A stretch of DNA of 64,000 bases. It comes from Rhytidiadelphus loreus (taxonomy: Eukaryota > Streptophyta > Bryopsida > Hypnales > Hylocomiaceae). Made by a program: the position numbers and the translations under genes. The stretch's first letter is position 1, and every line of letters starts with the position of its first letter. Positions 4,107 to 64,000 of the stretch are shown piece after piece. The stretch covers positions 4,714,501-4,778,500 of the forward strand of contig OX344763.1 in the NCBI GenBank assembly GCA_947034895.1. The letters are read 5' to 3'. Below the pieces are notes generated by a model. That model did no database searches. It saw nothing but the letters and a program-made list of their open reading frames with translations, and was not told where the DNA came from.

Positions 4107-5482
4107 ATTGACTGCTGACGTGGATGTCCATGTCAGATTTAAAAGGGGTCCATTGCCACTACACAGTGACTACAAAATGACTGCAAAATTACTTCCATTG
4201 TGTCCGGTCAACTTCCCTCTTTCTTTATTCCTTCTTTCTTTACTCCTTTTCTCTTTCTTTTTCATCCACTCCTACATCCAAGGTAGAAATGGATGGTGAT
4301 AATACAAACGCAGTCGTTTACATAAACGACTTGACCACAACGACTGTAGGGACCTCAAGTCGTTTTACAGTCAAGGTGATCACAATGACTTCTTTGTAGT
4401 CGTTTATTGAAGTCATTTTGTTCACCATTTTCTTGTAGTGTTGTCATGTACTTCATAAACTAAGTCTACCTCCGACAAAGGGTAACTATTAAGAGTGATG
4501 CTCGTTACCTACACCAATGCGACATATTTAGGAGAGTGATCTAGATATACTCAATCATTAATCATTTATTGTATGGAAACTACTTATTGGAAAACATGTC
4601 TTAGAAAACCAATGAAAGAACCAATAAGGTAACCAACCCTATTGCCGCCACAATTTTGAGTTTGATCCCCTAGAAGTACCATATAAGAGAAGATTAACTT
4701 TTCTTTTAGATATCCATAATCAACAATGAAGATATTGGTAGTAGGAAGTAGTTTTAGATATGCACCCCAAAATACATGAACACCACTAGGTTCCTCCAAA
4801 TTGAAATTGCAAAGAGTTGATAATAGTCATGCACTCATGCTCCATACTAAAATTGACAAAAATCAAAAGAATAGTTGCTATACAAAGATCCTATGATGAC
4901 CACCTCCCTTTGTAGGAAGTTGCTACTCAAACTCCATTGCTCCTAAAAGCAACTTTGAAGAGTCTAAAATCATTGTTTTTACCTTTTATTTTGCCACATT
5001 CACTTCCTAATTTGGTCACAAACAAACCAATCTCTCATGAATTGAGTTTGAACAATTAATAGGCTAATTGGTGGTCCAAATAGGCTCATAGGAGGGTGGG
5101 TGAAGTAGTCACATGGCAAAAATAAGGTGGGTTCACTTACCAGTATGCCCAATTCCATCAAGTGTTGATAAACTCCACTAGTTACTATGCGTATCATTTC
5201 TACAAGTGAACCTAAAGAAAAGAGAGAAGAAATAGCAACTTCTTTTGTTGGAGGTTAGCATCTATTTACAATGGATCCCATGTCAAATCCTTGTTGGAAT
5301 TCCCTACATTGCCACCGAGTCCAATCATGTGTTGCCAAGATAGAAGGTTGGTACATAAAGAAGTAGAAAATTGCTACTTGAGTAGTTAGTTAAAATCTCA
5401 TCAAGATATTAGTTAATTTGTAAAAAAGCAACCTTGCTTGTAAATAGGCTTGGGATTGAATCCTTGTGTATGTGTGAGTTAA

Positions 5483-32127: not shown

Positions 32128-33328
32128 CCCGAAAGTCTGTTGCATGAATTTTTGTCATCATGGTATCCACATCTTTTGAGAGTCACCGCAATGGCCATAT
32201 CTTAACTTCTCGATTTTAGCTGTTGGAACTCGATTGCGTGAATTGTACCGAGAGTTGTACGCACTGTAGCTTGGGTTGATAGTTTTGAGCATGTGTGCTT
32301 TCAAAGTTGAAACCAAACAAGTAGGTATGAGAATCTTCAAAAGGCTCTTGTTCATGTGGCATTGGCTCGCTTTTTGAGGAATCTTTTCACATGTAGCCTG
32401 GGTCAATGTAATACCAATGAGGTACTAATGTTCTAGAGAGAGGCTTTGTCCTTGTAACACTAGCTCACTTTTCAAGGAAGATCCTATTTAGACTTCTTTA
32501 AGAGTAGTTTTTGTCAATGTAATGTCAACAAGGTGCTAATATAATCTTTATGAGGCTTTGTCCTTGTACTTGTGGCTCAATTTTCAAAGAAGATTTTAGT
32601 CAAAATTCCTCACATGTCACTTCAAACCTTTGGTTTAGAGCCAACAAAAAGAAAACATGTGTTGACATCTTCTTGCTCTAAAATCAAGTAATAGAAAAAT
32701 ACATTTTGGTGATTCCCGAACTGTTGCATGAATTTTTGTCATCATGGTATCCGCATCTTTTGAGAGTCACCGCAATGGCCATATCTTAACTTCTCGATTT
32801 TGACTATTGGAACTCGATTGCGAGAATTGTACTGAGAGTTGTAAGCACTGGAGCTTGGGTTGAATGGTTGATAGTCATAGGCATGTGTGCTTTGAAACTA
32901 AACAAGTAGCTATGAGACTCTTCTAGAGGCTCTTGTCCATGTGACATTGGCTTGCTTTTCGAGGAAGGTCCCTACTCTTACATTTTTTCACATGTAGCTT
33001 GGGTCAATGTAACACCAATAAGTTATTAATCTTCTAGTCAGAGGCTTTGTCCTTGTAACACTAGCTCACTTTTCAAGGAAGATCCTATTTATACTTCTTT
33101 AAGAGTAGTTTTTGTCAATGTAATGTCAACAAGGTGCTAATATAATCTTTATGAGGCTTTGTCCTTATACCAATGGCTCAGTTTTCAAAGAAGATTTTAG
33201 TCAAAATTCCTCACATGTCACTTCAACCCTAGTCCCCTTTGGTTTAGAGCCAGTTGACTTCCAATAAACATATTCTAGCATTCCCTTGCTCTAAAATTAA
33301 GCAATAGAAAAATACATTCTGGTGATTT
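32128..33328. repeat. tandem duplication of about 590-610 bp
   Basis: Unit 1 (32128-32714) and unit 2 (32715-33328) begin cccgaa...ctgttgcatgaatt and share ordered blocks, for example agagtcaccgcaatggccat and aatacattYtggtgatt at their ends. They differ by scattered substitutions and small indels, so the duplication is not recent. No gene. Confidence 0.8.
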
Positions 33329-33729: not shown

Positions 33730-33965
33730 CACTAGAAGAAGCCCGTGGCTTTTTTAATTTGTTGATGTCAAAGTTGATGGATTTTGCTAGACATCGTTTG
33801 TAACAACTTGTGTTTTTATGTCAACAATGACATCTAATGTAACATCTTGACGTTACATTAGATGTCATTGCTGACATAAAAACACAAGTTGTTATAAAAG
33901 ATGTCTAGCAAAATCCATCAATTTCACGTCTAAAACATTCAAATAAACATGGGCTTCTTCTAGTG
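33730..33965. mobile_element. CACTA-type MITE, 236 bp
   Basis: Ends CACTAGAAGAAGCCCRTG and its inverse, with the 3-bp duplication TTG on both sides (33727-33729 and 33966-33968). The interior is a near-perfect fold-back (gacatctaatgtaac / gttacattagatgtc), so a transcript would form a long hairpin. Confidence 0.88.
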
Positions 33966-44730: not shown

Positions 44731-46674
44731 CCCTCCGTCCCATAATACTAGTCCCTTTTGTTTTTTTCCATTTGTCCAGAATTATTTGTCCCCTTTAACT
44801 TCAGATCTGATTTTAGGGTTGAAAATGATTTCATCTGTTTCTGACATTGTCTAATGAAACAAAGCACAAGAAGTCTAGTTTATTATCCACTTTACGAATC
44901 AAAAAAATTCTGAAAACTGAATTGTTTATAGCATTTTGAAGTTTATTAGGTTGAAGAATAAAAGACTTGGAACTTTTTCATTGAATCTATTGAATTCCAA
45001 GTTGTTCTTGTGCAAATCTAAATACATGGAGAGGGCAAGGGAGTTGCATAGGAAGTCTTCCTTTTTCTATGGAGTCTATCCTAATTTATATGTGGCACTT
45101 TATAGGGGAATGTTGTCGCATGAGTGTGGAGCATAGAGCATAGAGCAAGGGTTTCAAGTAATTTTTTCAAAATTTTAGAGTTTAGAAAAGTGAAGACCTA
45201 TGACTATGAATGTTGAGGACCTAAAACCATGCAAAAAATAGGTGCATCCAATCTAAGTGGAGGAAGTGGATGTGAAGCCAAAATAATACAATTAATACAA
45301 TTTGACTCTTTGAGTCCTCTATGTCACATGTATTGTTCATATTGAACTTCTCATACAATAGAAGTATAAAGAATACCTTTGCTTGAATTAGAAATCAATT
45401 AAATAAAAACAAGCATTCACTATACAAGTCTTCCTACTAAAACCTAAATAAATAATTCATACAAGTCATGACTTCTATTGTGCTACCCTCCGTGACAAAT
45501 AAATTCACTTGCTATTATGATGAAGACTAAAATCTAGGTTTAGATGAAGATGAAAGAGAGGAGTTTATAGATTTGTCAATACTATGTGCTAATGATATGT
45601 ATAGCAACAAATATTTAAAGCATGTCCTAGAATGAGGTTGTTTATTTTATTTATTTATTTATTTGTTATAGTGAGATCTCTAGAATTGTGCATCCCTTGG
45701 TTGCATTCTTGGTACTATGAAGAAGCTCTCTACGAAGAAGGGTGTACGGACTTTGTTTTGTGGCATTCTGACTCAGAGCAAAAAAACATTGAATTTCAAA
45801 GTTTTAACAAATTAGAAAATAAGGCCATATTCATTAAATTGAGACAATGTGGATTCTCATTTTAATCATCTTCCTAAATTTAGTATATAGAAGAGTTCAT
45901 TAAATTGAGACAATTCAATAAATTGAGACCATTAAATGGTGGAAGAATAAAGAATTTCTACAAAGATAAGAAATTTGAGGAAAAAAATAGTAGTGAAGGA
46001 CGTTGAAAGGTGGGATTTTGGACGGCAAACTTGAACCATTTATAATAAGTACTTAACTAAAATATCTAAGTAAATAGTTTGACATGTAGTGAGGTAGAGA
46101 ATTTTGAAATCATCCATGATAGAATACATTTGTACACCTAGCCTTATCAAAAACTACAATGTCAAAGTAAAGAATTTGACATATGCTTAGATAGAGAAGT
46201 TCATAATTACTTTGTATAGAAAACATTAGTACTCATAAGTGTTCCAAAACAAATGTCATAGACAATAGAATTACAATGAAGAACTTACAAAATACACAAT
46301 ACAATACATGAAATAAAAATAAAAATATATTATATTATACAACATCTATAACATCAAATTCTAATATAATAAAAAAAAAAGATCAAAACAATGAACTAAA
46401 AGATTAAAAAAACTAAATCTATTTCATCTACTGTACCTATTTTTTTCTAACAACTTTTTATTATATTTTTTTGTGCCCTAATCAAAGAAACTATCAACTT
46501 CTACAACTCTTTATAATTTTTTTTTTCCATATTTTTTTGTCATCCTTGCTAAAGTTAAGAAAATAACGTACAAACTCGCAAAACTCCTAATGACTTCCTA
46601 TGACTACAAACTATTCATCTTCACTCCGAAGATACATTATTGCTTTCACCAGATACATATGCATCCACCGATGT
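44731..46674. other. Stowaway-like end, then AT-rich spacer
   Basis: 44730-44910 resembles the Stowaway-like fragment at 10230-10400. Beyond it is AT-rich DNA with small direct repeats (cattaaattgagacaat near 45832 and 45898). No gene found before the stop codon of the next gene at 46675. Confidence 0.45.
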
Positions 46675-49468
46675 CTAGATGATAGCAATTTGTATTTTGG
46701 GAATTCTAACTCTTGGATCAGAAGTGCTTTCTTTGAAACGTGGCTTCCAAGCAGTCATAATGTAGTCTGTATGCGTCCAACTCGGAGAGATAGCCTTATC
46801 CTCGCACCAAGAATTCCCTTGTTTTGTGTCCCACCCAGTATATGTTTCTTCATTGGTGTGCTGAAAAGACGTAGGTGTCCAATATTGAAGTTGAATCGAA
46901 TTGACATGCCCGGGATCTGGATTAGGATTTGTTAGAGCCCGAGCAAGCCAAAATGGACGGAGGTCACCGTCAGCGGGTCGCACAACAACTAAGTAACCTG
47001 CATATACATCACGGCCAACACAAAATGAAGGAGGTGGACGATCACGCCTGTGACCAACAAAAGGTGCATCTTCCGCAAACTCCTCACGCATCGTGCCATC
47101 ATCTAGGTATTGGTCTTCCACCTCATCAGCAATTCGAGAATTTGGCCAAAATCCATCCCGTAATGTCTCATGCACCACAAGTGGAGCATTGAGAGCACTT
47201 CTTACACCCTCCCAATATTTCCGCACCGGCTCATTCTTCCTCCTAAACTCGCCAGATAAGTCTTGATTTCCCATTGCCCCCCACAATGCAATGTACCCAT
47301 CTAAACCCTTGCAAACCTCATCAAAGCAACGCATTTGTTGCGGTGGCAAAGGTAGAGGACTACCCCTCAGTACTTTAGGATGCCCATCTATTGTCTCCTT
47401 CCACAAGCGAATCCCCCCACCTCCTTTTGGCAACCAATCCACATCGGTACAAAGGATCTTGTACTGCATCAATGGCCACCCATTCGAATCCTTATAAAAC
47501 TTGAACTGTTGCGCTTGAGAATGACCCTGTAGAGAATCATCGCCTGTATGCAAATACCCATCCACAAATCGCTTAAAATCAGGAACCTCCTCAATGAGAT
47601 GAGGAATTACGGGTTGCGTTTCACAATCCATAAAAGACCATCAACCTTGGAAGTGTAGGGTAGTCATTCGTCTTCAATTTAGTGCTCCAACGACCAAATA
47701 GAGCATCAATGTCCTCATGAGTGTGTCCAACAATGAGGAAATTAATGTATATCTCTCGAAAAATAGCTCTGTAGACAAGGAGAGAACAAAATGCAAACAC
47801 CCACCGATTCTTGTTGTCGCCAGAAGCGTTGTCAAGTTGAAGAGTCAATGTTGGAGGAAGAGGTTGAGCTTCCACCAACACTTCAGGGGGGGACCCGAGG
47901 GAGTCCGTACAAATCTTTGAGCCTATTAACAAAGCCTCTGTCAATTCAGAACGCTTTGCTCCTACAAACAATTGACGAGATGAATGCTTCGGTTGTGACT
48001 CTAGATATCGCAATAATTTTGCAATGGACCCAATAGTATGGTTGGAGTCTGTTGGGAATATGTCCAAGCCATAGTGTGCATATCGCACATCTCCATGACC
48101 ATGAGCAATCATGCCCGTAACAGCGACAAGCATCTTCATGAAAGAATCATTTTCCTTACTCTTGTGAGAGTAATGAGGAGAAGCAGTCTTGGAGTGATCC
48201 ATCTTGTCATGGATTATAGTGAGAACCTTGTCAGGATACATCTCAGACATTGAACGGTTTCCATAGTACAAGTCCCTATGCGCCTTCTGTCCCGATAGGT
48301 GCATTCTCAATTTGTTAGACCACACGTCTTGTGCTCGCGAACGTGGAGTGCAAGCACTCTTAAGTTGCCTATATCTATCGCACATTCCACAACGAACAAA
48401 ACTATCGCCTCTAGCCTTGGGAGCATATTCAGGAAAAGATTGACGACGAATGTTGCTCAATCCACTAGTCGAAATATGTTGCAATTGAAGTGAAGAATTG
48501 ACATTGTTGATCTGTGGCAACTTGTCCTTCCAACGAAATGCAGACGGTAGGACCATAGAGGGGACTTTCTCCCCAGACTCAAGGGTCCTCGACTTGTGGG
48601 GCATCGTGTCCGCTTCATTCTCCACTAACAATCGAAGAGTTGCTGTTGCTTGCAAAGTGTATGTCCGAGGTTTTTTCATTCCAAGGTTGCCATGATGCTC
48701 CGGTTTTTGGTCATCTTTTGCCATCTTCTTATATCTATAAAAGGCAGCCTTCGATACTCCATGGATGGTGCACCAAGCAATCGAACAAATTTCATGGTTT
48801 GCCAAGGTGATCATGTCCCTTCCATTGGAATCAGTGTGGGTTTGCTTGTGCACGTCAAGCAGACGTGACTTCCGCCAGAACACTCTACCATCAATATGAA
48901 GTAGAGACCGAACGGCTTGAATCTGACCTCGTGGAAATGGTTGCAAGCAATTCTTCTGGCAACATTTCATACTAGAAACATCAGCAATTGCTTGCTCTGT
49001 GAGGAGGGCTTCTTTCTTCGGGAGATTGGTAGGCTCAGTCCTCTCACGTGAGTTTTCATAGGAACGAACTCCAGTCCGAACACGCCGCCTTGAACCGTTT
49101 GAAGAGACTGCAGTATTAAAGAGATGCGTTTGTTCGTGGTCATATAAGCTGGCACCATTAAGGTAGACCTTGGAAATGTGCCAAGAGTGCATGGACCACA
49201 TCCACTCCGACGGAACATCTGCCTCACACAAAGACTCTGCAATTTGAATTGCAACCCGGTCATCACCGAGTGGCTGCCCGTCCATGTCAATGACGAGATC
49301 TACATCAACATTATGACAAATTCCTTTTGCCACCTCTACCCCCTCCTCATTTTTGAGTGTGACGCATTTGGTATACCAAGAAGCTCGAGGAAATCCCTCG
49401 CAGGCTGCGACACCCGGCGGCAAAGTTGGCACTGGAACTGTAAAGTCGTTGGCATCTGAAGTATCCAT
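46675..49468 (-). CDS. DUF7869-type transposase-like protein, one-base frameshift
   Basis: One gene in two overlapping frames. 49468-47621 covers about 615 codons from MDTSDAN, and 47631-46675 continues from MDCETQPV. The join lies in a run of T near 47627-47631 and is explained by one extra base, either a mutation or a sequence error. Seen in order: a Cys cluster KCCQKNCLQPF (about residue 165), CGMC (about 375), HDKMDHSK (about 420), LQLDNASGDNKN (about 543) and VGHTHEDIDALFGRWS (about 580). The last two are the signature of DUF7869, and together the three acidic sites look like a DDE/D triad of an RNase-H-fold transposase (inference). The C-terminal part ends with PFWLARAL and TAWKPR blocks and may be a DNA-binding tail. 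I chose ATG 49468 because a strong 3' splice site, tttctttcatgcgcag, ends just before it; the upstream ATG at 49477 falls in the intron. Confidence 0.8.
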
Positions 49469-49469
49469 T

Positions 49470-50699
49470 CTGCGCATGAAAGAAAACCAATTAATTCATA
49501 CTGTTGTGAGTATCCTCGAGGCGAGGATAAAAATTGTGTACGACACATTCACAAAATGAGAAACAAAGTTGCCTCCACAGGAGTGAAAACTTGAAAACCA
49601 TTTTGTGATCAACTATAATAATCCATCCATCAGGACTGAAGAAGTGGAAATGCGAAGAATTAGCAGAACAGTACCATAAAACAGAATTGAATCTAATATC
49701 TTTCCATTCCTTAGAATAAATAAGAACATGATTACATAATCTCTTGAACACACATCTGAAGGAGTAAGATAATCAAAGGTATCTTCGCATCGAAGATATC
49801 ACATGGAAACGATTGAGAGATATTATGCATTCCCACACACGACATTAGAGTGTCAGAGTGATAATGCATATCAACTCTAAATATCATCATAAATGTCTAT
49901 GAATGTCTATGCTTGTCTATGGTTAGCATTCACATACTATGCATGTTTGTCATTATCCTCGAGCCGAGGATAACTTCCATCTATGTCTACGATTATCGTC
50001 ATGTCTAGGATAACCTCCACGCATGTCTGTGATTATCCTCGACTCGAGGATAATCTCCATGCATGTCTTGAATTAACGTGGAGTCGAGGATAGTCTCGAT
50101 GCATGTCAGTGATTATCCTCGGCTCGAGGATAACCTCCATGACAGTCTCTGGTTCTCCTAGAGCCAATAATAGCCCCCATGCATGTTTGTGATTCTCCTC
50201 GAGACAAGAATAACACCAATGTATGTTTGTGATTATCCTCGAGTCGAGGATAATCTGAGACATGCATGTCTGAGATTATCCTCGACTCGAGGATAACCTC
50301 CAACTGTGTATGTCTGATGTTATCCTCGAGTCGAGGATAACCTCCATCCAACAATGTCTGCGATTATCCTCGAGTCGAGGATAATCACAGACATGCATGT
50401 CTCAGATTATCCTCGACTCGAGGATAACCTCCATCCAACAATGTCTGCGATTATCCTCGAGCCGAGGATAACCGCCATGCATGTTTGTGATAGATAAATG
50501 TATTGTTCCGAAATTCACGGCGTAAAAATTGGTTGTTCTTTACCGAAACTCACATACGGGGGACAACCTTTGAGGCGTGACACCGGAATTTTCAATACTC
50601 TAAGAATCGTAGGTCTATGCACCTTTGCTTAAATCTAAGGAGAAACAGCAGGAATCTAGAATTCAATGAGAAGGGAAGAAGGGAAATAGAAGAACTTAC
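49470..50699 (-). other. 5' intron of the DUF7869 gene
   Basis: Read on the minus strand, a consensus donor gtaagttctt starts at 50699 and a pyrimidine-rich acceptor gcgcag ends at 49470, two bases before the ATG. All copies of the 21-bp palindrome near this gene (49510-50471) fall inside this interval. The intron is inferred from sequence only. Confidence 0.65.
49953..50471. repeat. palindrome-bearing minisatellite
   Basis: Thirteen consecutive units, each with a 21-bp dyad (arms TTATCCTCG and CGAGGATAA, 3-bp centre) and a spacer close to ctccatgcatgtctgtga. Palindromes start at 49953, 49993, 50033, 50073, 50113, 50153, 50193, 50233, 50276, 50320, 50364, 50407 and 50451: a period of exactly 40 bp, then 43-44 bp. 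Those at 49993, 50073, 50153 and 50193 are degenerate. Two further single copies lie at 49510 and 49779. Confidence 0.93.
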
Positions 50700-50930
50700 G
50701 ACAACCCGTCCGAAACTAAGCCACCTACTCACATAAACAGGTAAATGAAATGCAAAACATAAGTTCCAAGGCAGTGCGGTAGCAATGACTGCAAGAGGCC
50801 GCGGAGGAGGGAAAACTGGGAACCAGGAGAGAGAAAATGAGGTGCTCGAGGATGAGAGACAATGCACATACTAGCGGGAGAATATGAGCGAGAAATACAA
50901 CGGCATTTGAATTGTTCATGATTTTCAGGA
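50700..50930 (-). other. probable 5' non-coding exon of the DUF7869 gene
   Basis: Sequence upstream of the donor at 50699, with CT-rich runs on the minus strand. Short minus-strand frames here do not join the DUF7869 frame in an obvious way, so I take it as untranslated. The start of transcription is not determined; it must lie before the LTR-like insertion whose edge is at 50965. Confidence 0.4.
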
Positions 50931-51299
50931 CGTAGGGGAGAAGTACCTCCTCGGATTAGGGGTCTGTGGGCGCTTAATTACCCACCCTTGGTAATTAATC
51001 GGACACAACCAGGTTCTAGGGGTTAACTAAATTCTAACCTAACGGGTGACTAAGCGTCGGTCCATTGTGCCTTTCAAGCAATGGATCTTCCTTACTAAGT
51101 TCCTAGTTTTCGCAGGTAACAGTGGAGTTGCCCCCAATTGGCGAGGGAATAGTTCGGGCTAACCGTCCCCTAACGGAAGCCTATGCGAACTACCACCGAA
51201 TCTTTCCTAATCTATGGGAATCTAAGGCTAATTGACCCTTCTTAAGACTGGGGAGGGATTTACCTAGGTCCCTTCCATGGTTTCCTGAGTTAATTGGGT

Positions 51300-51612
51300 C
51301 TTTTCCTAATCTAAGTTATCTTTTTCCTTAATTTAATTTATCCTTTTTTCCTAATTTAATTTCTTAATTTAATTCCTAATTTAATTTCTTAATTTAATTC
51401 CTAATTTAATTTCTTAATTTAATTCCTAATTTAATTTATCTTTTTTCCTAATTTAATTTCTTAATTTAATTCCTAATTTAATTTATCTTTTTTCCTATTT
51501 TAATCTTCTAATTTAATTTATCTTTTATCTAATTGAATCTTCTAATTTAATTTATCTTTTATCTAATTTATCTCCTAATTTAAGTTGTCTAATTTATCTC
51601 CTAATTTAATTT
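51300..51612. repeat. TTTAATTCCTAA minisatellite
   Basis: Repeated words cctaatttaatttcttaatt and tttatcttttatctaattt cover about 310 bp, with units of 12-24 bp. Confidence 0.85.
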
Positions 51613-52449
51613 ATCTAACTTAGTTGCTTGTATGGGCCACTCCTATGTATGAAATGGGTTTGGATACTTCGAGTCCTATTTGATAAACTTCTATGTCTAA
51701 CTCAAGGCTCCCTAATCCCTATTTGCTAATCAGAATTATTCACTATCTAGCAGAGTCTAACGTAAATTAGAAGGGAAAAAAAAGAGACACCGGAGATTTG
51801 TTTAATGACTCACCTGATCGCCGTTAGCATGTGCGGCATCCTCCTCCATACCTCCAGCCGCGTGCTCGTATTCCATAGTCGACACATATTTTGACGTAGT
51901 AAAATGCCAACGGCTTAGTCCTCGGCGAAGTGGTACACCCTAAAGACCTTTAATGGTCCCTTCCTTACTCCTTGCCTCTTCTCCTTTTCTTTCAACACTA
52001 TTCCTACCAACCCTTTAAATGAGACCTTACACCATATGACGCTAATCTAATGGAAGAATCACCTATTCCCTTACGTCGTCATTTCGGTGTCATCCTAATC
52101 TCCTTCCTAATGGTTGTAAGAAGCTTTTGAGATTTCCTACCTAATCCTATGACGCAACACTATTTATCGTCTCTCCCTTCCTCCCTTCCTATAACTACCC
52201 CCTTCCTAATCTTGTCATCATTGTGTGAGGTGGCTTGTTGGTGAGGGACTTTGAGAGGTTGTGCAGGTTTGGACGCATGGGATGGCGACTTCTCTTCCCC
52301 CCTTCTTCCTTTAGCCTTGAGTTGGCCTTTCGTTAGTCTTTCACTAGACCCCGGTTTCAATCTTAGTGTGATAAAAACCCCAAAAAAAGGTGTGGTGGGG
52401 CCCCGCAGGGCATCGTCCCGTAGTGCTGAATTTAGTTGAGGTGAGGATT

Positions 52450-52700
52450 TATCCTTTCACCCACCCCCCTTTTCTGGACTCCCCGCCCAAGCTCCCTGGA
52501 CTCCCCGACTCCCCAGCCCAAGCCCCCTGGACTTCCCAGCCCGAGCCCCCTGGACTCCCCAACTCCCCACCCAAGCTTCCTGGACTCCCCGCCCAAGCTT
52601 CCCCGACTGTGCCGGTACTGTTGCCGGTAATGTTGCCGGTACTGCTGCCTGGCTGGCTGCCGGTCCCGCTGCCGGGCTGCCCCGATACTGGTGTTGGTGG
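52450..52700. repeat. GC-rich minisatellite
   Basis: Units of about 27-33 bp of the type cccaagcYccctggactccc are followed by gccggtactgttgccggta repeats. The Pro/Leu-rich frame at 52390-52782 and its minus-strand counterpart are by-products of the repeat. Confidence 0.75.
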
Positions 52701-52839
52701 CTGGTCTGGCGCTGGTTTCTCTCTCCTTCCTAAATTCCTCCTCTCGGGTTCCCGTATGGGAACCCACTCAACTAAAAACTAAACTGGATATTGCTTTTTG
52801 TGGTCAGGGTAAAACAGGGCTGGACTAAAGGTGACGTTT

Positions 52840-53150
52840 TTGAGGGCAGAGCTTCGCCGTTAGGAGATAAACTGAGAGTTAGCCCCGCTATCCTATGGGG
52901 GTTCTTCCGCCTTTCTACCAACTAGGGGGTATCTTGGGAGCTAAACTTTAATCTTTCCCAAGAAGATCTTGGGAACTAAACTTTTGGAACTTAGACCTTC
53001 CCGGGTCCAAAGCTTCGCCGTAGGATCGGTTTTAACACCAACTTTAGGACTTGCCAAGGCTTGGGATTCAAAGCTCCGCCGTCTAGGACTCATTTTAACA
53101 CACTCTTTAGGACTCAAAGGGTCACAAGGTCAAAGCTTCGCCGTCCCCCG
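52840..53150. repeat. dispersed aaagcttcgccgt repeats
   Basis: The word aRagcttcgccgt occurs near 52850, 53020, 53080 and 53135, each followed by different sequence and tttaggac / taacacc blocks. A degenerate tandem array of units of roughly 60 bp. Confidence 0.6.
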
Positions 53151-54841
53151 AAGGGTGGGGTCCACACAATCAAGGGAAAGGGTTACTAAGGTTAGATCTC
53201 CTTCTAAGGCACATGTACATGTAAGGTAGTAACGTTAGAGACTTTATGCACCAAAGGCCCCCCAAAGCGGCATCGCTAAGGTACGGTGGGGGGTTACTCT
53301 GGGGTTAGTGCACGACACAAGATAAACTTCACCAAAGACTCTTCAAATGGGACCAAAAGAAAGCCAAAGAAAGCACACAAAGTACATACGTACAAGAAGA
53401 AGGACTCCAAGGACCTTTAAAAGCTGCAAATAGAACAACAACGAGAGCCAAAAGTGCTCCAAAAACACCGTAGAGGTTTTTTGGCCTAAATGCCAAAAAT
53501 TCCAAGATAACTTGGACCCACGGACCCAAAACAAGTATTGGGGGTGTTTTGGGAGAGAGAAGGGCCCCCTTTTATAGGTTTCCAAGGGCCCACTCTCCCC
53601 CTCGACGAGTAACCTCATCCATCCGGATTTTCATCCAACTTTGAGATTTTCACCTAATCTTGGGTTTTACGCTGGTCCTAGTTTCTAACTTTTGGAGTTT
53701 AGCTTGGAATTGCAAATGGATTGCGCCAATGGCTTCAGAATGCCATTTTTAGCCTAAAGGACCCCCTACCCCCTATTTCTATCACAAAAAAACCCTCGGA
53801 AACTAGTGCCAACTGGAGCCAATTAAAAGGGTAAAAACCTAACTTTGGGGGTTTACCTCTTTTGGCTTGGTTAACTAGCTAGGGTTGTTGGGGAGGCTCT
53901 AGGGAGTAAGAAAAGGCTCCTTGATGTCTTCGTTCGGACTTCATACGCTCCCGGGACGCCGGTCAACCCCGCAAAGATCCTGCCGTAAATATTAATTGGG
54001 GGGATGTTATCAGTTTCGGCTGCTTCCCGCTATTGGAACTCCATGAATTTTGTCGGGGCGCGTTATTAACATAAAAGATGCTAGTCTAATTTTTAGTGAG
54101 ATTTTACCACGGCCTGGGTATTTCCTATGAATTTCCCAACGTGGCCTTTGGCGGTTGACCGCTCGGAAAAAGATCCTTTGGAGATCAGAAAAAACCGAGA
54201 CTTTTTGGGGAACCTCTCATGGAGTCCCCCAAGCCACGTGCCAAGTCTTGGGCTATTCTGGCACACAGTTGGTGGCGAGGTGAAAACTGACTTCGGTTGA
54301 ATCACCGGCAGTCAGGGAATCTTTCACATGTGAGGGAATCTTGGCGAATGGGTTTTGCCGTGGATGTCCCGACATGTTCCAGATCCGAGAACACTATCCG
54401 GCGGCTGTGGATTCCTCCATGCGGCCTGTCTGGGACAAGTGACACCTGCAAGCTAACAAATTGGATTCCTAATGTTTCGTTGGTGGAATGGGGAAACTAA
54501 AACCTATCTTTGGAGATTTACGTGGGGACCTCCTCCACTCTCCTAAGACTTAATTTAGCCTATCATGGTCACATGCACTAGGGTTTTGGGCTATTTTGGG
54601 TAAGTTCCTAGTAGCCCTGTTGTTTCCTACTAATTACGGGTTCTAACCTATATACAAGTGGGTTTTATGGGTAATCTATGGATAAAAGGCTATTTATGAC
54701 CAAATGCTATACTGGTACGTGACATACCTATTTTGGTTCTACACTCTTTTTTGGGCTTTTTGTACTACTTTATACCTTAATTTGTAATAAACTAAAAAAA
54801 AAGAAAACAATGAGTCCCAAGTGACGAATTTGGGGCTCACA

Positions 54842-57592
54842 GGGGCCGTTGACATTCTCATCGCCCAAATAATGACATCGATGAATAACAACGAAGGACC
54901 TTTTCAATAATAGAAATGAGATCTCACGTAGCCGATATTTTTTAGATTTAAATAGGGGGATTCATAGTTCGTGGAATTTTTGGCAGTCACCCTTTCTCGG
55001 AAAATGTGGAAATATTCTTTGAAAGCACAGCGGAATTTCGGATTTGGCAAATTTGGCAATTCTTACACCAGCCGCCAAACAACCTACTTTTTAAAATAGT
55101 TTATTCTAATGTGTGATTTAGATGAATGTATAGGGCTATAAACAGAAATGTACTCAATGTAAGCTTTCAATAGGGAATGAAGTTAGGGCTTATAGGGTTT
55201 AGGGTTTAGGTTCATGATTTAGGGTTTAGGACTTTAGAGTTTATTGGTTTAGGAGCAATAACAAAGTCTTCACGAAATGTAAATTACATGTTCACAAATT
55301 CAATGTTCTTAAACATTGTGATTTTGCAAATTATATTGACAATTCATATTTTTTTGGGAAATTCCAATAATAAAAATTTCAAGGATGTTTCTTATTTAAA
55401 ATTTATTGGGTTTAGGATATTTTTTAAATACAAGCGGATGATTAAACATAATATTTTTAGTTTCAAATATTATTTATGTCAACTTATAAATGATCTCCAA
55501 TTTTGTGGGCTTCTAAATGACTGTACACGTTCCGAATTACCCAAAATATTGCACAATCTCTAATATAATGTCAGAAAAAATATACACAAGTTTGAGCTCC
55601 TTTTTCCAAAACAAAAAATAATGTATAATTGTGAATTTCATAACATTCAATTCTATAAAATGTAGTATTGGTTATATTTTATTTTCCATAATGTTGTAAC
55701 ACATTCTAAGGAATTTGCATTGATAGAGGAGCACATTAAATATTTGCTATTCTTCTTGTAAAGCACTACAGAAACCAAAGAAGAAATGAAGCCATTGATG
55801 CTGTACTTTATAGAATTAAAATCACAGAAGCTTAAAATTTTAATGAAGATAACTACAGAGGAACAAAAAAATAATGTACTAGTTAAATTATGATAAAATT
55901 TGGAAAAATAATGATTCTTCAACATAGTTTATTATTCTATTCAATTGTTTTTTAAATTAGAATGATTCAGGGGAAAAATCTAAAATTTGCAGAACATTGT
56001 AAAGAAGTACAATAAAAAAAAAAGCCAAAATCTTTTATGAAGATGAAGGAAATAAAAAACAAATGTTTAAAATATTTCAAAAAAAAGTTGGATAATTGAA
56101 CTATACAAAGTAGGACCTCTATTTTTACAAGCGTGGTAATTCATAACAAAGTAAAAAAATTCAAAGATTTTTGTTCTAAGAAGTCATGATGTCCACCTCC
56201 ATGGCTTTCCAAGCCATGATTTGAAGCATAATTGGCTTCAAATGAGACTACTTTGTTAGTACATTGAATGAATGACGGACTTTGCATTCATTTGCTACCA
56301 ATCATTAGTATTAACCCCTGGCATCATAGTTTAGAGACTTGAACCACTTCAATGTCTCATAAATAATAATCATCAGAGGTTCATCTCCTACAAATGAATG
56401 TATTAGAATGTATCTTATACAATGACTTCCTAAATTGTATGAAAATACTATACTCTACAAGTTTTAGAAATTCTTTACATTTTTTGTTCTTAAACTACAT
56501 AATTATTCAGAAAGTACTAGTTATGTATGAATGAAAAGCCTATTTTCTAACTACTATGAACAATTTTGAGTGCTATACTTTTATAATTTTGTCATGATAA
56601 CTTTTCAATAAACAAAATATTGTATCAAACTAATTCTTAAAATATTTAACATAGAATTAAGAAATAAAACAAGCCAAGTGTACTTTGTACTTTAAAAATT
56701 ATTGTAAACTCAATGCACAACAATCATGGAATTATAAAGAAGACAGTGAAGTGAGAAAAAATGTAGAAGTTTCATTTTTTTCTCACTCTACGCTAAACTT
56801 TATTCCATAAATACAGAAATAGTAGTTTCTTAAATTAGAAAACAAGAATACTTAATTTTAATGTTTTGTTGTGAAGTACCTGACAAATGGCATTAAATAA
56901 ATTCAGAGAAGAATCATAAATTCAAGTTCAAAATATTTTCAAATTCTACATTTTTATTTTTTGTCCCATTTAATGGTTATTTCATACCTATTATAATGTT
57001 GAATCTGTAAAAAATGGTGTTTAGACCTTCATGGGTTAGACTCATCTGTAATGTAAAATTCTTTATAATTTTATAATAAAAAAATGGAATTTTTTTTTAT
57101 TACTTGATTATTCTTTAATTCATGACAATACTTTAAAATGTTTAATTAAATTTACTGAACTTTGTATTTCATATAAAATTTTAGTATACAGAATGCCAAA
57201 AATGTAATGTTAGCTTTGAATACGGTATGAAATTTGGGAATTGTGTTTGAGCATACAAGTTGTAAAGATGCTTCAATTGATTCATTTGAAACTTAGAGTG
57301 AATTCTAAGAAGCTCAAAAAATACGTTGGTCATTTTGAAGTTTTCTTACATAACAAATAAGAAATACAATTGATTAAATATTATTCAAATTTGTTATGGA
57401 AAACCCCAATGGATATGAAATTTTATCCTTGATTTTTGGGGTTAGGGAAAGTGTACATTAAATGAAAAAGTCTAAAGAAGATGAATTAGGGGACTGGAAG
57501 ATATCATATTCACTTTGGACAATGTTTGATACATGTGTTCAACATCTTTTGTTCCCATCATGTGCATTTTTAGCCTTCTTTAAAACCTTAAC
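54842..57592. other. AT-rich intergenic DNA with telomere-like motif
   Basis: No gene found. At 55191-55250 the plant telomere unit TTTAGGG occurs four to five times with interruptions (tatagggtttagggtttagg). The remainder is very AT-rich and unstructured to my reading. Confidence 0.5.
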
Positions 57593-58190
57593 CCCTAAAC
57601 AATGCCGAGGCTTTTTATTGTTCAATGAATGACAAACAATCTTGCCGTATAGGACAGAAATGTAACTATCCATTTTCTAGAATTTAGCCAGGGTGAAAAG
57701 AAAGATCATCTACAATAGTTTGTTTTTCAAGTAGTATTTTTCCATTTTTATAAGCCAACAATTCAGATGGTGATAAAACAAATAATTTTCACGATGACCA
57801 GCCTGGGATTCAAAAGTTAATTTTTCTTTTAAAGCAACATTTAGAATGCCCAAATGTCATGGTGTATAATTTGTGGTTGAATATTCAATTCTTCAAAATC
57901 AAATGCCATTTCTTTGAAAAATAGGGAACTGTAAAAACTTAATTGGATGAAGTTCTGTTACATTCTTTAGCCCATAATCAATGCCAAAGGCCATTTTCTG
58001 GTCATTGAATGACAAGGAATCTCTCCGTGTAGAACGAAAATGCAACTATTCATCCTCTAGAATGTGTGTGGAAAGGAAAGATCATCTACAGTACTTTGTC
58101 TTCCAATTAGTACATTTTGATTTTTTTAAGCCAACAATTCACACAGTGACAAAACAAATGATTTTTTTCAGGATCCGCCCATTGTTTAAG
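57593..58190 (+). repeat. diverged tandem duplication (about 380-bp period)
   Basis: 57593-57810 and 57972-58190 share ordered blocks: cattgaatgacaa, aagatcatctaca, taagccaacaattca and gacaaaacaaatgattt. Identity is moderate. Confidence 0.7.
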
Positions 58191-58239
58191 GTTGTAAAAC
58201 ACATACGTGTATAGGATCTAAAGCTTAGAAGAAGTAGTT

Positions 58240-58990
58240 TTGAGGAGGCAAGTCCGGCGTTGTTCATTCGGCAAAGGATATAACTTGAGAATTATTTTGC
58301 TTGGCAAAGTAGGTTCGGGGAGGCTGGCAGCTAGGGAAAGTAGGTTCGGAGGAGCCGTAGGTTTGACGAGGTAGGTTCGTCATGGCCCAAAGCTCGAGAA
58401 AGTAGGTTTGGGGAGGCTTGGAACCCGGTTCGGCTAGTCGCCCCTCCCCACCAGTGTGTTCTCCCCACCAGTTGTGTACGCGGGAGTTTGTGTGCACAGT
58501 CTACAGTGCAGACGTTTTTGTTTTTGGAGGATTGAGTGTAGTGCACAAGCGCGGGTTTCGAGGGTTGAGTGCAGTGTACAAGCGCGGGTTTCGAGAGTTG
58601 AGTGTAGTGCACAAGCGCGTGGAGGATTGAGTGCAGTGCACAAGCGCGAGGATTGAGTGGTGTGCGCGTGGAGGATTGAGTGCAGTGCACAAGCGCGAGG
58701 ATTGAGTGCTGCGCGCGTGGAGGATTGAGTGCAGTGCACAAGCGTGTGTTTCTTGAAGGTTGAGTGTAGTGCAGCGCGGGTGTTTCAGCCGAGTTTGGTG
58801 GTCGAGTGCAGCGCGGGTTTTTTTCCGACTTTAGCCCAGTTTGGCGGTTTGAGTGCAGCGCTGGTTTTCTTCCGACTTCAGTCCAGTTTGGCGGTCGGTT
58901 GCAGGCGCAGGTTTCTGCAGTCGGTTGGAGGCGCGCGTGGTCGATTGCAGGTGCGGGTGGTCGAGTGCAGGCGCGGTGTGCAAACAGAGG
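58240..58990 (+). repeat. GC-rich degenerate minisatellite upstream of the ParB/methylase gene
   Basis: 58260-58430 repeats aagtaggttcggggaggc-like units. 58530-58760 repeats gaggattgagtgcagtgcac plus aagcgcg about nine times, with fading copies to about 58990. It contrasts sharply with the AT-rich flanks and may be the promoter or 5' region of the downstream gene. The 254-codon minus frame across it is periodic and not taken as a gene. Confidence 0.75.
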
Positions 58991-59362
58991 TTTCGTTTCT
59001 GATTGTGAACGCGGGCTCCCATTTTTTGTTGTTTCGTTCGGGTTTCTAGATGCATTGACACAGATTGGGAAGAGTACCAAACTTGATTGCACCAAATTCT
59101 GTCATTTCTGGTAAGAATAGTTCCACGGTTGTTTTCTGTACAATGTGTTTTATATGTAATGTTTTTTTGTTTTCTAGTGCCAGGTTCTAGAATTTAGGGT
59201 GTTTTTGTTCTTTGCATCTTCACTTTGTAGTTACTGTTCATCTTGTTCTTCAATTCTTCACCTTGTTGCACTAGTATGCAACTATGACTGGCCTAGGGTT
59301 TAGAGTTATAGTGTGAAATTTTGGTTTATGTCTTCTTAGATTAGGGTTTGTAATGTGTGCAG

Positions 59363-59431
59363 GACCCATTGTGAAAGTTTGTGTCACACTAGAAATTGCT
59401 ACAGGAAGTGTAAAACTAGAATTATTTGAAG
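59363..59431 (+). other. putative 69-bp 5' exon
   Basis: Bounded by an acceptor tgtgtgcag and a consensus donor gtaagc. In one frame it reads VKVCVTLEIATGSVKLELFE, vaguely like the first strand of PPIL-type cyclophilins. Joined to the next exon it is not in the frame of the downstream ATG, so I treat it as untranslated or as a captured fragment. Confidence 0.35.
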
Positions 59432-60448
59432 GTAAGCAAGTCTTTAGTTGGTGTTTCTGTTGGTTTCAATATGTGATTTCAATTCTGTTTTTAAGCATGT
59501 GTTAATTGGATGTGAGATTACTTGGTGTGGTATAGTATTTTTTCAATGTCTGTAGTCAAAATGTGCCTAGATTATTAGTATAACAATTAGGGTTTTCGTC
59601 ACAATTCTCACCAATTATCGTTGAGTTCACAAGAAAATTATCCTCGGGTCGAAGATAATAGTCACGGGGACAACGGTAAAGAACCCAAAAGAGTAATGCA
59701 ACTTGACTAAATATTATCCTCGGGTCGAGGATAAAAAGCTACAACGACGAAAGAAAAACAATGTACTTAAATAACAAAATATTATCCTCGGCCCGAGGAT
59801 AAAACAAAAAACAAAACATGAATCCAATATAATTGAATTAAAATATGATACACTTATCCTCGGCCCGAAGATAACAACAAAAACCATAACACCAATATAA
59901 CAATCACATTCAAATAAGAAACACTTATCCTCGGACCGAGGATAATACAATAACAGATATGACACATCATAATTAAGACAGTGTCATATGCATAGTCAAA
60001 TGATTCATATACGTTATCTTTGACCCGAAGATACTTAATCAAAACAGTCAGTCTCAAATATAATTTAGGAGATAATTTTGTTTTAATGTCGGCTGAAGTA
60101 TTTCAAATTAAATACAAAACATTTATCCTCGGTTCGAGGATAAAATCAACCAAAGAAAACACAATATTATATAACCGAATAACTATCCTCGGCTCGAGGA
60201 TAAAAACATCTACAGAACCAAGAAAATAATATAATGATATGAGAATAACGAACATTTATCCTTTTCTTGGACGATATTAAACCGTAGTTGTGACCTACAA
60301 ATAAAATGTGTAGATTGATCACTCCGTTGTTATGATGTTTATCCTGGCATAATCATTTTTGAGTGATATACCATCTTTCCTCTGTTATCTTCGATGCGAA
60401 GATAAAAGTCAAATTACTACTCTGATGTTCATGGTTTACATTGCACAG
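59432..60448 (+). other. 5' intron of the ParB/methylase gene, with dispersed palindromes
   Basis: Donor gtaagc at 59432 and acceptor ttgcacag ending at 60448. Nine clear copies of the 21-bp palindrome start at 59638, 59714, 59782, 59854, 59925, 60014, 60123, 60183 and 60385, with one degenerate copy at 60256. Unlike the array at 50 kb they are spaced irregularly (60-200 bp) with unrelated AT-rich DNA between. Confidence 0.75.
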
Positions 60449-61885
60449 AATCGTACCAACATGGCTACAGACTCGGACTACGACTACTCAAACACACTCC
60501 CGTTTCTGGAGCCATTTAGCAAGTGGGTGGATGAGGAGCCCTTCATAACGGAGATGCCAGAGCTCTACGGCAAGCTCTGACAATTCAAAGCCGTTGTCGA
60601 CTCCTGGACATTCGGTGTCAACCAGTCCAAGGACTACATCTACCTCCGTCACCGAGTAAAAGACACCGGGATGTACGTGAACTGGAACCTGAGTGAGAAG
60701 GTCGCACTCGTGGAGAACCACCAAGACAAGTACATTGTCATCACCCTGCAAGGGCACGACAACGCGGGAAGGGAAACAAAACATACCCATTCCATCGTCT
60801 GCCATGAAGATGACAATGTGGGAGTTTTCGACTTCGACAACCTCATCGCCGACTTGCACTCGGCAAACCTCGATACCTTGGCAGAAGACTTTATTTCAAG
60901 GTACCACCCCTGGGTCAGAAGGAACGCCAGGACCACGTCTAGGAAAATTGCGTACATGTTCCATAAGCTCACGGAGCACGCAAAGGAACATGTCCACAAA
61001 GGACCTGCTCGAGCGAGTCACGGTCCAGGTCAACAAAGGCAGGACACTGCCACTGAGACCAAATCTGCGTCGGGAGTGCGTGGCCGCACAGGGAGTAGAG
61101 GAAGTGGGAGAGGAACCGCCCGCGCTCAGGCCTAGAAAAGGAAGAACCCGGACACCAGTATCGGCGAGCCGAGTGACAAGCGCAGGAAATCTATGGCGGA
61201 GAGTCGTCCAGCAACCGCTGGCAGTTCAGGCTCTATACTTACGAATGTGAATCCGAGGAAGCCAACAGATAGAAAGCCAATCGAAAAACATGAAGTCGCT
61301 GGAGCATATCAATCAGATTTCTGGAAGGAAAATGGCAAGTGCTTCATTTTTCATCCCCAGATCTTCACCGTAGACATCAAACAATGCTTCCTGGCCAAGG
61401 AAAGATATATTATTCGGAAGCTAAAAATGAGAATGGTGTTTGAGATGAAAGACACCCTCGTTCATCTCGGCTCAGAGCAGCAAAGACAAAAACTTTGCTT
61501 GACACCTGTAGATGCCAATAAGAAACTTCTGAAGGAGCGTCCGAAGGATTGGGATTCTATCAAGAACGGAGGCTTCTACATCATCAATGGCCAGCACAGT
61601 GTCACAGCAGCCAAAATGCTACAACAAGGAGGATGTTGTGAGATTCGGAAGATCGAGTTGCAGACGTGGGAGGCTATAATCGTTTGGACTAGAGACCCGA
61701 AACAGCTCACAGCTATTTCAAAATGGTGCAATGCCTCCAATCACCTCGTCCACAGTCAGCCAACGTGGGGGAACCAAATTTCCGCGTGCAGGCAGGTTTG
61801 GAAGGAGCTCAAGCGGCCTACCAACATCGAGAATGAGGGATTGGTGAGGCGGAACAAAGCCGTCTACAACCTTGCAGCATACAAG

Positions 61886-62093
61886 GTAGGTCCTATTATC
61901 TTCGAGGCGAAGATAAAATGTAGATGTTCATGATCTAGCTAGATGTCTTCATGTATTGCCTGTACAGGTTTTGTAATCTGGTTTTCTATGTTTTGTGATG
62001 TATATCACAATTATCCTCGGCTCGAGGATAATGGTCAGAAAAACTGTACGCAATGAGCAATGAGCTGACTTCATTGAATATTCATCTCCACAG
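61886..62093 (+). other. intron with two palindromes
   Basis: A 208-bp GT-AG intron in phase 0. It carries palindrome copies at 61896 (T/A variant, arms TTATCTTCG and CGAAGATAA) and 62011 (C/G variant). Confidence 0.85.
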
Positions 62094-63425
62094 GACTTTG
62101 TCGACGCTGTCATGATCCGGTATGGCAGCATCAACCCTGACAAGGAGGGAGCACAGGTGAAGTTCGCATCGGATGTCAAGAATGAAATCCGAATTATTAC
62201 CTTGGCCGATGAGACTTACCAGATGTAGGAGGAATTCCTCCAAAAACACATGGAAGGATCACTGATTGATCTTGTGACGCGCAAACCATTCAAAAGCGCG
62301 AAGACCTTCAACGAGAAGAATTTCTTATTGAAGAGGGAATTTTTCAAGCACATGGGACACTTCACAGACATTGATCTGAAGGATTACGTCCTCCATCTGC
62401 TTGGGAGAACAGAAGGTCGCACACGGGACTACTCGAAGGTCTCAGTGGGCGCTTCAAAGATATTGTGCGAGGACAATTATAAAGCCGAGCACTGGGTAGA
62501 GAGGAGGAAGCGAAAGAAAGTCATCATGGAGGAATTCATGGCCCTCGATAAGTCCTTAAAATTCAAGGACAGACATGGGGAAGTCATTGACGTGGCGTGG
62601 AAGCAATGGAAGCGCGACAACATGTTTTCCTCGGCAACGTGGGATTTCCTCCTCACCGCCCCCCCCAACCAGTTCTTCGTTAAGCGCCTCACCAACGAGG
62701 CGAAGAAGAAGACAGCAATAGACTACAAGGACAACCCAAAATTGTCGATGGTCTATAACATGTTCAAGACCTTCTTGAAAATGAAGAAGCGGGTGGAGCC
62801 AGTGGGAGGGGATGTATTCATTCGGGGTCACCAATGCTATCCCCAAGCTCTTGTGACCACCCATGTGTGGCCCTATGTCATGAGAGACCTTCGTGTTGTT
62901 GTCATAGATTTTCGAGTCCTCCCTAGACCAAATCCAGGATCCGGTGACAGTCCACCGTGCTTGCCATTGCTGAATTTCTTGACAGAGCACCTGAAGCCGG
63001 TCATGACTACTCCGGATGTGTGGTTATGGATTATGGGAAATCCATACGACATGGACGCGGCAAAGAAATTTGTGGTGTCGAAGATGACCGGGTACAAAGT
63101 CAAGGTGTCCAACTACCTACCTAGTAAGGCCGAGAGGATGGACAACTCGACCAACCGTGCGTTGGCACCCCCAGTGAAGCTCCTTTTTGTATTGAAGAAA
63201 TGGGATGACGGGGAGCCAAGATATAAGGATGTAGTAAAGAAGGTCTACACCACCGATGACATTCCTTACTACACGGACTTTCAGAAAAACACCGAGGCAA
63301 AATATAGAGTCCATGCTAGTGAGCTCAGGATGGAATTCTATATTGACATTCTCTAGAGTTTTGCCGTGACTGGAGAAAACGTCATCGGCATTTACACAGG
63401 CTCAAAGTTTATGATTGCTGCCAAG

Positions 63426-63640
63426 GTGAGACTCCATGTTTTGCTTGTCTTTATCTTCGGCTCGAAGATAAAAGTGTCTTATTGCTGGTTATCTTCGGCT
63501 CGAAGATATCTTTGTCTGTTAGTGTTGTATTATGTGCTAACTTACTCGATGTATATTGTATGTTCGTGTGTTATCTTCGAATCAAGGATAAAGACTCAAG
63601 GGTGGATAATGAGCATTAACGACTGCTTGTTCTTCTGTAG
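63426..63640 (+). other. intron with three palindromes
   Basis: A 215-bp GT-AG intron in phase 0. It carries copies at 63451, 63489 and 63571. The splice is supported by protein homology: the methylase-like block GSKFMIAAK continues as MYGLYYYGLTDRH only after removal of this intron. Confidence 0.85.
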
Positions 63641-64000
63641 ATGTATGGTCTCTATTATTATGGCCTTACTGATCGGCATGCATCCCAAAAACTTCGAGAA
63701 ATGGCGAAGTATGGCAGTAAATTAGACATCAATGATTTCTGCCATGAAAACTCGCCATATCTCCCAGGTTATGAACGTCCTCGTAACCTTCAAACTCCAG
63801 ATGTGGACTCGGAGTCCACCCCCTCTATTGATGGCAATGCGGGAGCCTCAAGGGCAGATCAGGATTTCCCAGGTGACGAGGGTGCTTCCAACCTCGGCAT
63901 CAATGAATATGGAACAAATACCAATATTGTTCGAGGAGGAAATGTGGAGCAGGGCCAGGGCCAGGGCCAGGTACAGGACGAGGGCCCCGAATCCGCCTCC
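63641..64000 (+). CDS. last visible exon of the ParB/methylase gene (partial)
   Basis: Open for all 120 codons from the acceptor at 63640 to the window edge in the frame set by the previous exon. It starts MYGLYYYGLTDRHASQKLRE, the counterpart of the end of DNA-methylase motif I through the following strand, and then becomes an acidic, low-complexity tail with GQGQGQ near 63953. The gene continues beyond the window. Confidence 0.8.
   Translation, partial: MYGLYYYGLTDRHASQKLREMAKYGSKLDINDFCHENSPYLPGYERPRNLQTPDVDSESTPSIDGNAGASRADQDFPGDEGASNLGINEYGTNTNIVRGGNVEQGQGQGQVQDEGPESAS

Follow-up and report, generated by a model that had tools for sequence, protein, structure and literature searches.

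Previous work showed that the VANC21 protein binds a short motif in the introns and other non-coding parts of the transposon VANDAL21, and that methylation is lost there (PMC5735166). Other reports described fungal DNA transposons carrying a TET/JBP dioxygenase, a protein of DNA-modification type to which a role against silencing is ascribed (PMC12730594), phage proteins in which a ParB-type fold is fused to an N6/N4 amino-methyltransferase-type fold (PMC12704722), and the Sola DNA transposons, which make a 4-bp target duplication, can be large, use a DDD-type transposase and have been reported in the moss Physcomitrella (PMC10741241); these four papers are drawn on here in part. We analysed a 64-kb stretch of the moss Rhytidiadelphus loreus (contig OX344763.1, positions 4,714,501 to 4,778,500; hereafter the window), which comes from an assembly totalling 407 Mb in 489 contigs and holds the greater part of a large DNA transposon in which a 21-bp palindrome, TTATCYTCG-N3-CGARGATAA, recurs. 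The element has two divergent genes, gene A, a putative transposase gene, and gene B, whose product is predicted to join a ParB-like fold to a methyltransferase-like fold, with a third, phosphatase-like gene to the right. Among plant transposons, VANDAL is to our knowledge the known case of an element whose own protein acts on its own repeated site to counter silencing. A transposon with its own array of regulatory sites is of a known kind; here an unusual protein is linked to it.

As in VANDAL21, many copies of a short motif, often in tandem, lie in the introns and elsewhere in the non-coding DNA of a single DNA transposon family, the exceptions here being sites in the last exon of gene B, and extra genes lie alongside the transposase gene (PMC5735166). 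Unlike the VANC21 target YAGTATTAY (PMC5735166), the moss motif is a 21-bp palindrome; it is also stable between families whereas VANC targets turn over, and gene B has no recognised Pfam family and has ParB-like and methyltransferase-like folds in its models. The fungal elements share with this one the pairing of a DNA transposon with a DNA-modification-type protein, but the enzyme type and the hosts are different, and a palindrome array does not figure in the part of the description drawn on (PMC12730594).

The window holds 28 matches to the palindrome at ≤3 mismatches (19 exact, four with one mismatch, two with two and three with three), against 0.06 on average, and never more than 1, in 100 dinucleotide-preserving shuffles, which bears out the original prediction of a repeated palindrome. 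That prediction also confined the palindrome to four inferred introns of two unrelated genes. The introns do account for 27 of the 28 matches (13 + 9 + 2 + 3), but a degenerate site lies beyond the 3' end of gene A, two more sites lie in the last exon of gene B at 64453 and 64621, just outside the window, and an additional cluster follows the phosphatase-like gene, on the side towards the element's right end. Nor are the two genes unrelated. Sequence comparison assigns both palindrome-bearing genes to one large DNA transposon, of which they are the divergent genes, because homology among copies starts and stops at the same 28-bp terminal inverted repeat, AAGGCCATATTCATTAAATTGAGACAAT, and 4-bp direct repeats flank the element.

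For comparison we used the window copy and five other motif-dense places taken from the 88 genomic sites listed (see below). Target duplications of 4 bp (CTTG, TATA, CTAT, TATT and AAAT) were read by eye in 5/5 two-ended copies, that of the window copy being also readable as 12 bp; the left end was not found in the sixth copy, c1545. Lengths are 18.0, 18.2 and 18.7 kb for three copies, 25.8 kb for a fourth and 22.1 kb for the window copy. Matches at ≤3 mismatches number 28 to 38 per copy in all six, and every one falls within the element, the flanks examined having none. The first intron of each divergent gene has the densest arrays, the array in the 5'-untranslated region (5'-UTR) intron of gene B being wider than that of gene A. 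The degenerate site beyond gene A recurs in 5/5 copies that have a left end, at +792 to +796 counted from that end and each time with three mismatches. A genome-wide scan with the palindrome, the check proposed with the original prediction, gave 2,893 exact sites versus 0 for a reversed control pattern. Among the 88 distinct sites listed of these 2,893 (all in C1:324245-2231316), 82 are in the five comparison copies, three in a fragment (L038) and three in a diverged relative (L039, L040), and none is free-standing; equal density in unrelated DNA was not seen in the 88 listed sites and the flanks examined. Only its position and a short match (161 bp at 71%) link L039 to the family, the neighbouring L041 confirming it as a relative. 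Copy number is a lower bound because the genome search with gene B scored 111 of 880 candidates.

The intron assignments were upheld in part. The splice ends of the two downstream introns of gene B are conserved in 6/6 copies despite differing intron sequences, and the gene A acceptor CAG, one base ahead of ATGGAT, is kept in 5/5 copies examined, which supports these introns as read from the sequence. The gene A donor could be placed in five copies, one of which (b428) reads TTAAGT there, and the 5'-UTR intron of gene B in only 2/6, both with GT...AG ends. The last exon of gene B is a different context. All 16 palindromes found there in six copies share one reading frame, mostly DYPRxED (DYPRGEDN and DYPCREDN at 64453 and 64621 of the window copy), and in d1666 and e2167 three of them are 102 bp apart, a multiple of three. 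The frame is open through these palindromes in 5/6 copies; in d1666 two of four sites contain a stop. Because the palindrome is found in the last exon and in the right-end cluster as well, its sites belong to the element, mostly to its introns, and not to introns as such. An apparent intron property of a motif can thus really be a property of one mobile element. The suggestion that the palindrome is a tiny intron-tolerated insert is not supported, the sites lying in arrays inside one element with no free copy among the 88 listed.

Shared origin of the palindromes and selection on them, also proposed originally, are supported by the sites' membership of one element, by arms better conserved than their flanks and by recurrence of the motif in a diverged family and in relatives on other contigs. 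Between the window copy and c1545, identity was 82.1% for intron flanks, 95.2% for intronic arms and 95.2% for exons; between the window copy and d1666, of another subfamily, it was 60.7%, 88.0% and 81.6%, respectively. These identities are supporting evidence only, because the aligner can favour arms. Stronger evidence of selection is the persistence of the dyad over evolutionary distance. In a third family (C1:2197001-2232500, part compared), amino-acid identity is 36-45% for gene B and 60-62% for gene A, and the DNA can be aligned only in short coding pieces of gene B. The architecture is the same in mirror orientation (L039-L041), with 10 sites within or next to the three corresponding introns in L041 (any base allowed at position 6; 0.03 expected), 8 of the 10 reading TTACC or GGTAA on one arm, and seven sites upstream of gene A in L040. 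The dyad is thus retained between families even though their non-coding DNA can no longer be aligned.

Relatives of gene B on other contigs gave a further view of the same motif. Their open frames continue past a conserved exon end into the intron at 39 ends among 60 relatives, and 22 of these read-throughs are usable (≥7 residues). As back-translations from protein frames, not DNA, 12/22 read as the palindrome by a strict pattern and 17/22 by a general one, whereas 14,683 exon residues gave 0 and shuffles averaged 0.005 (strict) and 0.023 (general); some of the read-throughs suit a double change matched between the arms at position 6, TTATCGTCG...CGACGATAA. Among the 120 of 218 gene A matches examined as relatives (74,901 residues), the lone palindrome match was in the upstream extension of P0004. 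Neutral unequal exchange within the element could have multiplied the palindrome in tandem and would explain why the 37, 40, 73 and 102 bp arrays have repeated flanks, but such an origin is very unlikely, since arms exceed flanks in identity and persist in the third family and in the relatives, where flanks cannot be aligned.

Because it is conserved far better than the surrounding DNA, the palindrome is probably a protein docking site, the best of the three functions originally offered. We favour, with moderate confidence, the reading that it is the element's own dyad-symmetric recognition site, that the gene B protein is its likeliest reader, and that the protein acts against silencing or as an activator. 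A dimeric protein would read both half-sites, TTATCYTCG and its mirror, across the 3-bp spacer. The likeliest such reader would be the gene B protein, with its ParB-like domain and its methyltransferase-like domain with an altered catalytic motif. It would occupy many sites just downstream of both promoters, and occupancy would keep the element's genes unsilenced by the host, or activate them, by analogy with VANC proteins on the Arabidopsis VANDAL transposons. If this is true, the element is a candidate second, independent anti-silencing system, in a moss plant, with an unusual ParB-like and methyltransferase-like protein and a stable, recognisable target. The palindrome and gene B would make a testable protein-site pair, and the palindrome a marker for finding the family in other genomes.

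The variation among sites bears on who reads the palindrome, and in what form. Symmetric double changes occur at position 6 in 43/172 sites, at position 1 in two, and at no other arm position; the other arm letters are largely fixed, with ATC and GAT among the least variable. Fixed letters and matched changes at position 6 are as expected for a dyad read by a dimer. The resemblance of GGATAA/GATAA to plant I-box/GATA or one-repeat MYB sites raises the alternative that a co-opted host transcription factor reads the half-site. The low variability of ATC and GAT fits such a factor; a reader of GATAA alone would not need the largely fixed inner letters and 3-bp spacing, nor does it suit the matched pairs in which position 6 varies, and we consider a host reader rather unlikely. 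The original prediction had also allowed a splicing signal or transcript hairpin, and nine-base arms around a 3-base loop, mostly in introns, could in principle form one. Half-changes on the sense strand over all 193 sites gave G.U 81 versus A.C 34, as a hairpin would predict, but without the right-end tandem cluster (21 of the 193 sites) the counts were 41 versus 34, and with identical 21-mers also collapsed they were 32 versus 31. The excess persists among distinct 21-mers on the gene A side (19 versus 9) and is reversed on the gene B side (13 versus 24). An RNA hairpin is not supported, because the G.U excess shrinks to 32 versus 31; in addition, it is the sequence that is fixed and not pairing alone, double changes are almost solely at position 6, and some sites fall between genes or within a coding frame. 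We therefore regard this reading as highly improbable.

Near the right terminus, the half-sites TTATCTTCG and TTATCTTTG begin about 90 and 70 bp from the end in 6/6 copies (window copy: L036 ~4337-4365), so that the palindrome arm may also serve at the element's end. In En/Spm, TNPA sites are bound by the transposase for transposition or self-repression. A comparable role for gene A at the palindrome would fit these half-sites and the conservation of gene A along with the element. It seems doubtful, since the full sites are not heaped at the termini, the arrays occupying mid-element and a stretch from about +3.7 to +4.6 kb, and the only full site near the left end is degenerate.

The case for gene B depends on its two predicted folds. 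Foldseek searches with a model of its first part (mean predicted local distance difference test, pLDDT, 49.8) gave ParB-family proteins in the top eight rows, with a best expectation value (E) of 0.0067, none < E 0.001, and probabilities of 0.80-0.99, so the ParB-like assignment is of low confidence. The second part is modelled as the permuted methyltransferase fold of beta-class amino-methyltransferases. Both parts have altered motifs. The P-motif of ParB reads GxRR, and the catalytic motif of beta-class amino-methyltransferases is of the DPPY type. In gene B the P-motif position reads GQHS or GQHN in 11/11 rows of alignment A2, and the P-motif arginine is needed by ParB (PMC12704722). The DPPY-type motif is absent, the matching strand (placed by eye) reading IDxRxxP with D270 and R272 nearly invariant. 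Because GxRR reads GQHS and DPPY reads IDxRxxP, neither activity is likely to be standard.

The palindromic sites parS, NBS and OB are those of ParB, Noc and KorB. The moss element resembles these systems in combining a palindromic site with a protein of predicted ParB-like fold, and differs in having GQHS for GxRR, a plant transposon as carrier and arrays of ten or so sites. A ParB/parS-like system in a plant transposon is a further, rather improbable reading. The palindromes would be loading sites for the gene B protein, which would spread from them along the element in the manner of a clamp, excluding or reading DNA modification and so protecting the 18-kb element from silencing. On this reading the site code has remained almost fixed over the time in which gene B diverged to about 40% identity. 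ParB-fold proteins are often found on mobile elements, and the phage ParB-N6/N4 methyltransferase fusions have the same pairing of folds (PMC12704722). Unlike them, gene B has its DPPY motif replaced and is carried by a plant transposon; the main text of PMC12704722 has no words starting transpos, plant or moss. A search of the open-access literature found no description of this palindrome or of a ParB-methyltransferase gene in a plant transposon.

Several points weigh against the recognition-site reading with gene B as reader. In the arm and flank comparison the aligner may pair palindromes with neighbouring ones, the sites were selected because the window copy fits the pattern there, and homogenisation of tandem arrays needs no selection. 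The read-through patterns were drawn up after some tails had been viewed, the general one after the whole first batch, and at least three tails are near-duplicates (P0172, P0176, P0180). The model of gene B part 1 is poor, with its Foldseek matches falling short of E 0.001, and the altered motifs make standard ParB or methyltransferase activity unlikely. The site is unchanged between subfamilies with about 16% gene B difference, unlike the fast turnover of VANC targets. Finally, naming gene B as the reader, in preference to gene A or to a factor of the host, is an inference.

Database searches assigned few families. Across gene B and its relatives, Pfam gave no family common to more than one member and none at cut-off for the first members, with a weak DUF6551 hint (E 0.15, below cut-off) on the GQHS stretch. 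Searches with five proteins gave nothing at cut-off in NCBIfam, where a weak match to a fosfomycin-resistance family was judged chance, and no match in PHROGs. Viral contigs had no match to gene A or gene B; the exact palindrome pattern at one viral-contig locus was judged chance, the contig being full of overlapping open frames. Gene A, the putative transposase gene, is a single frame of 888 aa in copy d1666 (part of the copy compared). Residues D360, D363, D485 and D527 are invariant across 25 aligned sequences, and its named relatives are from Physcomitrium and Ceratodon. By sequence, gene A had three matches only to solved structures, all at chance level, and DUF7869 was not mentioned in the open-access literature searched.

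The third gene encodes a NIF/CTD-phosphatase-like protein (PF03031, 5e-15), and its stretch is about 88-95% identical among copies, compared with about 78-89% for the gene B block. The usual phosphatase motif is DxDx(T/V); at that position the protein reads DLNGV. Solved structures gave no match by sequence for gene C, nor for gene B part 1. CACTA (En/Spm) elements have CACTA termini and a 3-bp target duplication, and such an identity was rejected, the termini AAGGCCATATT... and the 4-bp duplication not fitting. The 4-bp duplication, the large size and the occurrence in a moss resemble what is described for Sola elements (PMC10741241); the ParB/methyltransferase-like gene, the phosphatase-like gene and the palindrome arrays have no counterpart in the part of that paper drawn on.

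Table 1. Features of the window copy and of the phosphatase-like gene (window positions unless a locus is named)
Feature	Position	Strand	Remarks
Transposon copy	45821..64000 in window; right end ~67926, beyond the edge (C3:4782426)	.	Copy homology stops at the terminal repeat; left repeat begins at 45821
Degenerate palindrome	46615-46635	.	3 mismatches; past gene A 3' end, near the element's left end
Gene A, putative transposase with DUF7869	46675..49471	-	Pfam DUF7869 2e-37
Gene A 5'-UTR intron	49470..50699	-	13 palindromes in 40-44 bp array, 49510-50471
Foreign insertion	50963-54841	.	~3.88 kb alignment gap (3.9 kb); only in window copy, not other five; GGGG both sides
Gene B 5'-UTR intron	59432..60448	+	Nine palindromes, 59638-60405
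Gene B exon, ParB-like region (INGQHS motif)	60449..61885	+	ATG at 60461; in-frame stops 60578, 61133 in window copy
Gene B intron	61886..62093	+	Two palindromes (61896, 62011); GT...AG and two palindromes in 6/6 copies
Gene B exon, beta-class methyltransferase-like fold (predicted)	62094..63425	+	In-frame stops 62226, 63354 in window copy
Gene B intron	63426..63640	+	Three palindromes (63451, 63489, 63571); GT...AG and 2-3 palindromes in 6/6 copies
Gene B last exon, start	63641..64000, continues past window	+	Palindromes 64453, 64621 in open frame
NIF/CTD-phosphatase-like gene	L032:2072-2815 (copy d1666); window copy beyond right edge near L036:2130-2723		PF03031

The window copy is decayed. 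Its gene A is in two overlapping frames, broken near 47621-47631, and four in-frame stops lie across two gene B exons. The foreign insertion occupies the gene A promoter region and contains a TTTCCTAATTTAA tandem array. Before gene B, GC-rich tandem repeats with units of 20-49 bp lie at 58520-58980, perhaps in a promoter or first exon. Outside the transposon, 32137-33327 and 33771-33924 hold repeats of two kinds, direct ones of 143 and 249 nt (94%) and an inverted one of 76 nt (93% complementary).

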